Shown: positions 13,250-20,001 of the stretch, in pieces | How positions within the stretch are numbered: position 1 is the stretch's first letter | Layout of the letters: each line of letters begins with the position of its first letter | DNA from: Acidobacteriota bacterium | GTDB lineage: Bacteria; Acidobacteriota; Terriglobia; Terriglobales; Acidobacteriaceae | NCBI GenBank assembly: GCA_021780075.1 | Contig: JAJXZL010000050.1 | Coordinates: 1-64,000, forward strand | Direction: 5' to 3' | DNA: 64,000 nt | The notes under the pieces: model-generated | Database searches by the model: none | Seen by the model: only the letters and a program-made list of their open reading frames with translations | Told to the model about the DNA's origin: nothing | Translations under genes and position numbers: made by a program

Positions 13250-13337
13250 AAAAAATAGAGGCGGGCTGCCAGCTTCGGGAGTGGAAAGACTTCCCGAAAC
13301 CGGCTGCCCGCTGGACCCTGAACCGGGTCTGGGTGGT
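13250..13337 (-). ncRNA. Candidate small RNA or leader attenuator with intrinsic terminator
   Basis: On the minus strand, from a predicted start near 13337, there is a 5-bp hairpin (GACCC/GGGTC, 13314-13329). It is followed by a long two-part stem: outer arms 13302-13311 with 13261-13270 (10 bp, one A-A mismatch) and inner arms 13292-13298 with 13274-13280 (TTCGGGA/TCCCGAA). Six Us at 13250-13255 come after it. This is a complete terminator of a roughly 88-nt RNA. The Spy-like gene starts 150 nt further on, so the element could be an independent sRNA or an attenuator of that gene. No Rfam class is recognised. Confidence 0.5.
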
Positions 13338-13343
13338 ATCTTT

Positions 13344-13371
13344 AGTCTAGGCTTGTTATGAAGAAAATCAA
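13344..13371 (-). promoter_or_regulatory. Possible promoter for the leftward RNA / Spy-like gene
   Basis: TTGATT and TAGACT with 16-bp spacing on the minus strand, placing a start near 13337, immediately before the structured segment. The only support is the match and its position. Confidence 0.45.
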
Positions 13372-13399: not shown

Positions 13400-13427
13400 G
13401 TGACCGCAGTCACCGCACTGTGGTGAC
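13400..13427. promoter_or_regulatory. CRP/FNR-type palindrome between divergent promoters
   Basis: GTGAC-CGCA-GTCAC (13400-13413) has the GTGA-N6-TCAC core of CRP/FNR-superfamily sites. An overlapping second pair, GTCACC-N7-GGTGAC, reaches 13427. The first site is centred at about -71.5 from the predicted ATP operon start and about -69.5 from the leftward start, a position used by class I activators. Related sites lie at 20332-20349 and 30280-30293. Confidence 0.5.
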
Positions 13428-13442: not shown

Positions 13443-13471
13443 TTGACTTGCGGCATTTCCCCTGATACAAA
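13443..13471 (+). promoter_or_regulatory. Sigma-70-like promoter of the ATP synthase operon
   Basis: TTGACT and TACAAA separated by exactly 17 bp. The start would be near 13478, giving a leader of about 50 nt before the first subunit gene at 13528. This is the best promoter match in the window. Confidence 0.65.
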
Positions 13472-13527
13472 AAAGTGTTCCACCCGCGACAGAAATCACA
13501 CTGACCGCCTGGATTACCGGTACCGGA

Positions 13528-13986
13528 ATGCAAGAAATCATTCAACAAATCGGGGCCTTGCTGCTCGGCTCTGTGCCTACTTCCCTGCTGTTTATCGTGC
13601 TGGTGGTGGCCTACCAGTTTCTGGTGCAGAAGCCTTTGACCGCCACGCTGAAGGAGCGCCGCGCCCGCACGGAAGGTGCGGTTGAGGACGCGCATAACGC
13701 CATCGGCCGGGCTGAGGCGAGGGCTGCGGAGTACGCTGCCAGGCTGCGGCAGGCGCGCGCGGAGATTTACAGGGCGCGCGAGCAGCGCATCAAGCAGTGG
13801 ACCGCCGAGCGCGATGCGGCTCTGGATGCTGCGCGCAAGGCCGCAGGGCTGAGGGTGGGCCAGGCCAAGGCCGAACTGGAGACAGAGGCTGCCCATGCAC
13901 GGCAGGCGATTCAGGGCTCTGTCGCGGAACTGGCTGGTCAGGTGGTCAGGGCAGTTCTGCCGCTGGCTGCCGGGGGTTCCCGTTGA
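13528..13986 (+). CDS. atpF: F-type ATP synthase subunit b (first of two b-type genes)
   Basis: Peripheral-stalk subunit linking the membrane a subunit to F1 and delta. 152 residues with one N-terminal transmembrane helix (about 11-32, VPTSLLFIVLVVAYQFLVQ) and then an unbroken charged, Ala-rich helix typical of b or b'. It heads the operon, and its stop codon overlaps the start of the second b gene. The pair probably forms a b/b' heterodimer, as in photosynthetic bacteria and many others; which is b and which is b' cannot be decided from length. The ribosome binding site is weak. Confidence 0.85.
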   Translation: MQEIIQQIGALLLGSVPTSLLFIVLVVAYQFLVQKPLTATLKERRARTEGAVEDAHNAIGRAEARAAEYAARLRQARAEIYRAREQRIKQWTAERDAALDAARKAAGLRVGQAKAELETEAAHARQAIQGSVAELAGQVVRAVLPLAAGGSR

Positions 13987-14726
13987 GAGATTTGATTGTG
14001 CGTTCGCTTGTTTTCAAAAGAGTTCTCTGGTTCGTTTGCTTCGTGGTTTTGGCGGCCGGGGTCATGGTTCTGCCTGTCCGTACTGGGGCACAGGAGGCGG
14101 CAGCGGCGCCCGCCGCAACCACTTCCGCGCCGGCAACAGGCGGCGCTGCCAGCGCAGAGAAGGCCGGGAAGTCCGAGCAGGCGGAGATGGATGTCTACCG
14201 GCATGCTCCCGTGGTGCAGACGATCGCCAGAATGATTCACCTGCCGCTGGAGACCACGGCGCGGCTCTTTGAACTGATCAACTTCGCCATCATTGCGCTG
14301 GCCATCCTGATTCCCCTGGTGAAGATTCTGCCCAGGGTTCTCCATAACCGTTCGAGGACGCTGAACCAGAACCTTGCTTCGGCGCGCAAGATGACCGAGG
14401 ATGCCAACTCGCGGTTGAGCGCGGTCGAGGCTCAAATGGCGAAGCTGGACGAGGAGATTGCCGCGATTCGCGCCCGCGTGGAAGAGGAAAGCAAGCAGGA
14501 CGAAGTGCGGATCAAGGCTGCGATTGAAGAAGAGAGTGCCCGCATCATCTCCGCCTCGGAGCAGGAGATTACCGCGGCCGCGGCGCATGCGAAGCGCGGG
14601 ATCAGGCACTTTGCCGCCGATCTGGCGATCGAGCAGGCCGCCAAGCAACTGGTGCTTACGGCGGAGGCCGACAGCGCCCTGATTGCCGACTTTGTACGCG
14701 AGACGGCCAAGGGAGGGCAGAACTAA
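13983..14726 (+). CDS. atpF: F-type ATP synthase subunit b with N-terminal extension (second b-type gene)
   Basis: 247 residues from TTG 13983, which overlaps the previous stop (TTGA) and has GGGGG upstream; GTG 13998 is an alternative. The first 35 residues are hydrophobic and signal-peptide-like (VLWFVCFVVLAAGVMVLPV, then AQE). An Ala/Thr/Gly-rich linker follows, then the usual b-subunit membrane helix (LFELINFAIIALAILIPLVKI) and a long charged helix. Most b subunits are about 155-170 residues, so the extra N-terminal hydrophobic segment is unusual. It may be cleaved or form a second membrane helix. Confidence 0.83.
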   Translation: MRDLIVRSLVFKRVLWFVCFVVLAAGVMVLPVRTGAQEAAAAPAATTSAPATGGAASAEKAGKSEQAEMDVYRHAPVVQTIARMIHLPLETTARLFELINFAIIALAILIPLVKILPRVLHNRSRTLNQNLASARKMTEDANSRLSAVEAQMAKLDEEIAAIRARVEEESKQDEVRIKAAIEEESARIISASEQEITAAAAHAKRGIRHFAADLAIEQAAKQLVLTAEADSALIADFVRETAKGGQN

Positions 14727-15266
14727 ATGGCCGCATTCGTTTCCCGCTACGCGCAGGCTTTTATCGACGTGATTACAGACGCCGGGCTGGATACAGCCGC
14801 CATCGACCGGCAATTGAATGACTTTCTTGGCACATGGGATGGCAGCGCAGAGTTGCGCGATCTGTTTGCAAACCCGGCCGTGGCCGCCGCGCAAAAGGTG
14901 GCCATTCTGGATAAGCTCAATGCCAAGCTCGGGCTGCAGAAGGAACTGCGCAACCTGCTGGCCGTGCTCATCAACAACGACCGCATTGGCCAGGTGCATG
15001 AGGTGGCAGCGGCCTATCGCGCGGCTCTGCAGGAGCGGCAAGGCATCCGGCAGGCGGAGATTGTGACGGCGCGGGAACTGAGCGAGTCGGAACGCAGCGC
15101 GCTGCTGGAGAGCGTGGGCAAACTGGCCGGAACAAAGGTTGAAGCAAGTTTCAAGCTCGACACGGCGATCCTGGGCGGCACGGTGGTGCGCATCGGCTCC
15201 ACGGTGTTCGATGGCTCGGTGCGCGGGCGGCTGGAGCGGCTGAAGGAAACATTGATCGCCGGGTAG
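14727..15266 (+). CDS. atpH: F-type ATP synthase subunit delta
   Basis: Connects the b stalk to the top of the alpha3beta3 head. 179 residues, normal length: a six-helix N-terminal domain (SRYAQAFIDVI, RDLFANPAVAAAQKVAILDKL) and a C-terminal domain with the family strand LDTAILGGTVVRIGSTVFDGSVRGRL, mentioned here by its key residues GG and DGSVRG. It begins directly after the upstream stop codon and has GGGAGGG as ribosome binding site, so it is translationally coupled. Confidence 0.93.
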   Translation: MAAFVSRYAQAFIDVITDAGLDTAAIDRQLNDFLGTWDGSAELRDLFANPAVAAAQKVAILDKLNAKLGLQKELRNLLAVLINNDRIGQVHEVAAAYRAALQERQGIRQAEIVTARELSESERSALLESVGKLAGTKVEASFKLDTAILGGTVVRIGSTVFDGSVRGRLERLKETLIAG

Positions 15267-15318
15267 TTTTTCCGGCAAAGGATTTACCTCAAGGTTCTAA
15301 AGGATAGGAAGAGCAGAG

Positions 15319-16854
<1,536 letters not shown>

Positions 16855-17010
16855 AGAGGGTTCAGGTTTCAGGGATCTTCAAGACCGATTGCAGAAGGAA
16901 CACTAAGAAACGAGGGATCAGGAATCAGAGAGCAGTGAACAAAGGAAACTGGATACGCAATCATGCGGGTATCCGACCCTGAACTCTGATCCCTGACACT
17001 GGAAAGACTT
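16855..17010. repeat. Intra-operon spacer with inverted GATCCCTGA-type repeats
   Basis: The 156 bp between atpA and atpG contain several related words: GGTTCAGG, TCAGGGATC and GAGGGATCAGG on the left, and CCCTGAACTCTGATCCCTGA on the right (about 16975-16997). Left and right words are complementary, so the mRNA can fold into a large hairpin. The words resemble short tandem intergenic repeats scattered in acidobacterial genomes. No gene fits here. Confidence 0.6.
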
Positions 17011-19541
<2,531 letters not shown>

Positions 19542-19578
19542 CCAAGCTGACAGCAGTAAGCTATCCTGAAAGGAGCGC

Positions 19579-20001
19579 ATGGCAGAGGAAACAAATCAAC
19601 TGCGGGTCCGGCTGGTCACTCCGGCGCGTGTGCTCTTCGAGCACATGGCGAGCTCCGTCGAATTGCCGTCGAAGTCGGGATACCTCGAGGTGCTTTATGG
19701 ACATGCGCCGCTGGTGGCCGAACTGGGCGCTGGCGACGTGACCCTGCACGACGGGCCGGAGGGCGACGAGCGCTACAACGTGAACTGGGGCTTTGTGGAG
19801 GTGCTGCCGGATCGGGTGACGATTCTGGCCTCCGACGCGCTGAAGCCGGAAGAGATCGACGTGGCCCGCGCCGAGCAGCAACTGGACCGCGGCCTGCAAC
19901 TTTGGAAAGAAGCCGGCGAGAGCGAAGAAAAATACAATGAAGCTCTGCGCGTGATTGCCGAAGGCGAAGCGAAGATTGCATCGGCAGCGGAGAAGCACTG
20001 A
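19579..20001 (+). CDS. atpC: F-type ATP synthase subunit epsilon
   Basis: Rotor subunit that docks on gamma and can inhibit ATP hydrolysis. 140 residues: an N-terminal beta sandwich with the family segment LEVLYGHAPLVAELGAGDV and VNWGFVEVLPDRVTILA, then a C-terminal helical hairpin (EIDVARAEQQLDRGLQLW). The ribosome binding site is AAAGGAG. It is the last gene of the operon; a strong hairpin follows at 20032. Subunits a and c are not found in the window. Confidence 0.95.
   Translation: MAEETNQLRVRLVTPARVLFEHMASSVELPSKSGYLEVLYGHAPLVAELGAGDVTLHDGPEGDERYNVNWGFVEVLPDRVTILASDALKPEEIDVARAEQQLDRGLQLWKEAGESEEKYNEALRVIAEGEAKIASAAEKH

Follow-up and report, generated by a model that had tools for sequence, protein, structure and literature searches.

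A conserved, probable CRP/FNR-type operator between the predicted divergent promoters of the ATP synthase operon and a structured small RNA in Acidobacteriaceae

The Acidobacteriota genome studied here is predicted to place its F-type ATP synthase (atp) operon and an 88-nt small RNA (sRNA) under a common CRP/FNR-type operator. The locus lies in a 64,000-nucleotide stretch of DNA (the window), and it was compared within a genus of the Acidobacteriaceae around Terracidiphilus and Occallatibacter. This comparison establishes a conserved operator, predicted divergent promoters on its two sides, helical phasing between operator and promoters, and a structured, single-copy sRNA. We consider it likely that a CRP/FNR-family dimer, predicted to bind GTGAC-N4-GTCAC, takes a class I position on both sides (around -70), where it would aid RNA polymerase at a divergent pair of promoters of the sigma-70 type, those of the atp operon and the sRNA. 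Probably one regulator, perhaps reporting oxygen or redox state, controls both transcripts, and it would do so by activating both promoters.

The operator, GTGACCGCAGTCAC (13400-13413, no strand assigned; dyad GTGA-N6-TCAC, centre 13406.5), is not significant by counts as a lone motif: 13 exact GTGAC-N4-GTCAC sites occur genome-wide versus nine for the reversed control pattern, and with one mismatch allowed the palindrome is found twice in the window versus 1.6 expected. The relatives search yielded this region in 29 genomes, the one studied here among them, and genus-wide pattern searches together with fetched stretches gave 72 distinct loci. In 66 of these the same pair of divergent promoters flanks a GTGA-N6-TCAC (consensus tCGTGACngCAGTCACAG); resampling those spacers with a first-order Markov model gives an expectation of about 0.0006 (0.06%) per locus, and this conservation rules out a chance motif. 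The operator was not found in six of the 72 loci. Named strains differ naturally in this respect: Occallatibacter savannae AB23 has the operator, and Terracidiphilus gabretensis S55 is without it. A preliminary description of the window had read GTGAC-CGCA-GTCAC as a CRP/FNR-type operator at class I distances between divergent promoters of the atp operon and a structured RNA, a reading that would fail if the palindrome were not conserved upstream of atp in relatives. Its coordinates are exact, and conservation within the genus supports the reading.

That description had also called for an alignment with related genomes, and here the outcome depends on the taxonomic range. The operator is kept within the genus, and GTGA-N6-TCAC is missing from the same place in all 20 sRNA loci examined from other genera, the stretch covered reaching about 600 bp from the centre of each locus. 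The predicted operator control is thus specific to the genus, among the genera of the family examined. In other genera of the family, atpF adjoins 15 of the 20 sRNA copies that were read, and none of those 20 loci has the operator; so either the sRNA-atp pair predates the operator, or the site has been lost elsewhere.

Both predicted promoters are conserved in the alignment of relatives. The atp promoter, TTGACT-N17-TACAAA (13443-13471, plus strand), consists of TTGACT at 13443-13448 and TACAAA at 13466-13471, separated by 17 bp, with an extended -10 TG at 13463-13464. The sRNA promoter, TTGATT-N16-TAGACT (13344-13371, minus strand), has TTGATT at 13371-13366 and TAGACT at 13349-13344, separated by 16 bp. 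A generic promoter scanner listed no promoter between atp and the sRNA, and the support for both comes from alignment conservation. With transcription starts predicted 7 nt beyond each -10 box (13478 for atp and about 13337 for the sRNA), the operator centre falls at -71.5 and -69.5, respectively, the same distances as first described.

The site of class I CRP promoters lies no closer to the start than -61.5 (PMC2859248). Among the genus loci, the operator centre is 69.5 or 70.5 from the predicted leftward start in 59 loci, 68.5 in two, 72.5 in one and 90.5-92.5 in four, and from the predicted rightward start it is 70.5-73.5 in 61 loci, 60.5 in two, and 82.5, 91.5 and 110.5 in one each; the values cluster at 69.5/70.5 leftward and 70.5-72.5 rightward. 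Measured from these predicted starts, the operator centre keeps to the helix face expected of class I sites (near -61, -71, -82 or -92), with two exceptions: one right-hand shift (110.5) is out of phase, and G075 has an odd left distance. Where the spacing departs from its usual value, it mostly does so by whole helical turns (-61, -82, -91), on each side independently. By a hand count there were about seven shifts, and six of them come within 0.15 of a whole number of turns (rough binomial P 0.004). Since both distances are fixed together in most loci, they are not independent evidence, and this gives some weight to a reading in which the operator serves one promoter only and the constant distance to the other is merely conserved spacing. 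We regard that reading as unlikely, because the left distance alone has moved by two turns in G084, G086 and G089 and the right distance alone by one turn in G020 and G030, with phase kept in each case (in G008 both sides are shifted). Given these whole-turn shifts on either side independently, the simplest reading of the distances is one class I CRP/FNR activator site common to both promoters. Counted against activation is the atp promoter itself, which appears strong enough to work without an activator.

The leftward transcript is a putative sRNA of about 88 nt (13250-13337, minus strand). Read from 13337 to 13250, it comprises ACCACCCA, a first hairpin GACCC-GGUUCA-GGGUC with an invariant stem (13314-13329, minus strand), a long terminator-like second hairpin with the C-rich loop UUUCCACUCC (13261-13311, minus strand), and a U run. 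The first hairpin is recognised by fold and alignment, and the second by fold and covarying pairs. The folding energy is -48.2 kcal/mol (z -6.1), and 10 of 21 pairs have changed on both sides among 55 aligned sequences, with 45 double-change cells versus 11 in shuffles and far fewer in every slid control. Of 80 genus genomes, 69 contain a single copy of the sRNA core pattern. Thus the element has its own predicted promoter, a terminator-like end, a conserved structure and independence from its flanking gene, as expected of a small regulatory RNA.

No Rfam covariance model matched the sRNA. Two structured RNAs described from Acidobacteria, Acido-1 (RF01686) and Acido-Lenti-1 (RF01687) (PMC2864571), resemble it in being structured RNAs of this phylum, but neither model matches the locus even at E up to 5. 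A search of 349 genomes from the class with a covariance model of the sRNA itself gave matches in 34; apart from one weak match (E 0.007), the matches are spread across ten genera of the same family. None was found on plasmids. In the literature searched, which left most subscription journals out of reach, we found no earlier account of such a small RNA in Acidobacteriaceae, and within that coverage the sRNA appears to represent a family not described before.

The constant neighbour of the sRNA is the ATP synthase operon. Its first gene, for a b-type subunit (PF00430; 13528-13986, plus strand), stands beside the sRNA in all 72 genus loci, and atpF is divergent from the sRNA in each of them. 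In the operon (13528-20001 of the window), where genes for b-type subunits come first, we noticed none for subunits a or c, so these may be located elsewhere. The preliminary description had named a small RNA or a Spy-like gene as the leftward target, and of the two the small RNA, with its own terminator-like end, is retained. The structured element could instead be the 5' leader of the Spy-like gene, in which case the regulator would control a periplasmic chaperone-like protein, and in the window that gene does follow on the same strand about 130 bp downstream. We consider this very improbable, given that the Spy-like gene adjoins the RNA in only six of 72 loci, that its place near the sRNA is taken in L002 and L003, both close relatives, by the end of a peptidase gene, and that the RNA closes with a long hairpin and a U-rich run. 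The Spy-like gene was excluded as the leftward target on its presence in those six loci only.

The sRNA carries C-rich unpaired stretches, ACCACCU and UUCCACUCC, and sister genera often have ACCUCCRCUCCC in the loop. These resemble anti-Shine-Dalgarno seeds, and the loop suggests pairing to Shine-Dalgarno sites; the sRNA would probably act in trans through them. A conserved GTGTTCCACC is found in the alignment at the beginning of the atp leader (13475-13484, plus strand), with conservation nearly equal to that of the promoter, and UUCCAC is common to this element and the sRNA loop. Pairing of the sRNA with the atp leader was looked for and gave no consistent signal, leaving that mode of action unsupported. 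We tentatively hypothesize, as a possibility less probable than its negation, that the family-wide sRNA, usually divergent from ATP synthase, is the post-transcriptional arm of oxygen or energy control, that a single FNR-like protein of the Terracidiphilus-like genus switches on ATP synthase and the sRNA together, and that the sRNA then blocks the Shine-Dalgarno sites of competing mRNAs.

The genome has eight cNMP-binding-domain matches, four of which are full CRP/FNR-type proteins with a helix-turn-helix. All four have an RE..R recognition helix, which we take, by the helix logic of CRP, to read GTGA. None is a CRP equivalog, the best scoring 76.5 against a cut-off of 266 bits, and the regulator is thus not predicted to be a classical cAMP-CRP. 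Another type of regulator with similar half-sites might occupy the operator, chiefly the redox repressor Rex (TTGTGA-N6-TCACAA), which would repress rather than activate. Rex operators have GTGA-like half-sites and Rex commonly controls energy genes, both of which speak for it, but the distances on both sides are those of a class I activator, and the Rex N-terminal domain PF06971 had no match in this 99.5% complete genome, with control genomes giving matches. Rex itself was rejected on the absence of that domain, and we give a regulator of this sort very little credence.

For the preferred CRP/FNR-type regulator, the best candidates are two proteins, tf45 (G000:C18:60390), encoded beside proteins that we judge from their sequences to be of the universal-stress type, and tf47 (G000:C33:200038), a second cysteine-bearing FNR-like regulator; either could be the binder. 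Both have an N-terminal CX2CX8C and a further cysteine at about residue 70, and these cysteines do not vary among the 21 tf45 and 30 tf47 sequences compared. These cysteines recall the iron-sulfur ligands of FNR, but their spacing is unlike that of E. coli FNR, and for this reason oxygen sensing is a lead rather than a result. The genes are present in 68 (tf45) and 73 (tf47) of 80 genus genomes, and both are missing from G005 and G021, in which the operator is absent, and from G075, which has the odd left distance. These three genomes share a leader and look like one clade, so the joint loss may be one event; Fisher tests gave 0.033 and 0.063, values uncorrected for kinship. At the thresholds used, G092 and G100 keep the operator without either protein, and G093 keeps it without tf47 and with a diverged tf45. 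Given these three genomes, co-occurrence is not decisive and neither candidate is proven. A conserved GTGAGSCCCRTCAC palindrome 70-240 bp before the tf47 gene in orthologues (L103-L106, L095, L097) suggests that tf47 may be autoregulated.

A further regulator, tf44 (G000:C20), was set aside. The operator carriers G003, G006, G007, G008, G014 and G019 have no tf44 at the threshold used, G021, which is without the operator, has it, and the conserved upstream site of tf44 itself, GTGACYWAAGTCgC, also disfavours it. That site lies about 34 bp before the matched tf44 gene start in many orthologues (L044:1365-1378; L053-L062) and suggests putative autoregulation of tf44 through a different centre. 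Exact sites were also observed elsewhere in the genome: GTGACAGTTGTCAC upstream of hoxE/hoxF-like bidirectional hydrogenase genes (L031:1501-1514; G000:C7:43199), a possible further target, and GTGACTCGAGTCAC between a fructose-bisphosphate aldolase/phosphatase gene and feoA/feoB-like genes (L032:1501-1514; G000:C7:57172).

In the related Acidobacterium capsulatum, declining oxygen brings a steady fall in atp transcripts together with a rise in those of universal stress genes (PMC11636273), which makes oxygen-linked control of atp plausible; these data are compatible with the model but are not evidence for it. In the literature searched we found no described regulator of the ATP synthase genes of Acidobacteriaceae, which are abundant soil bacteria, and the locus offers a candidate regulator site together with an sRNA.

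Parts of this arrangement are familiar from other bacteria. FnrS of Escherichia coli is an sRNA whose gene is under the CRP/FNR-family regulator FNR, as is predicted here for the Acidobacteriaceae sRNA, but the sequences are unrelated, the present sRNA has no Rfam match, and its operator is common to the sRNA and ATP synthase. The classical FNR regulon uses a TTGAT-N4-ATCAA site, in contrast to GTGAC-N4-GTCAC here. The form GTGA-N6-TCAC is shared with class I CRP promoters of E. coli, whereas here one site faces two divergent promoters and the regulator and effector are predictions. The closest parallel for atp is the CRP-type protein GlxR, which activates atpBEFHAGDC in Corynebacterium glutamicum (PMC7026483). 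With this precedent, CRP-family control of atp would not be new in kind, and the operator may join an already known mode of regulation. GlxR likewise is a CRP-family protein on an ATP synthase operon, but it binds cAMP, whereas in the Acidobacteriaceae genome there is no CRP equivalog, the candidates bear FNR-like cysteines, and the site also faces an sRNA gene.
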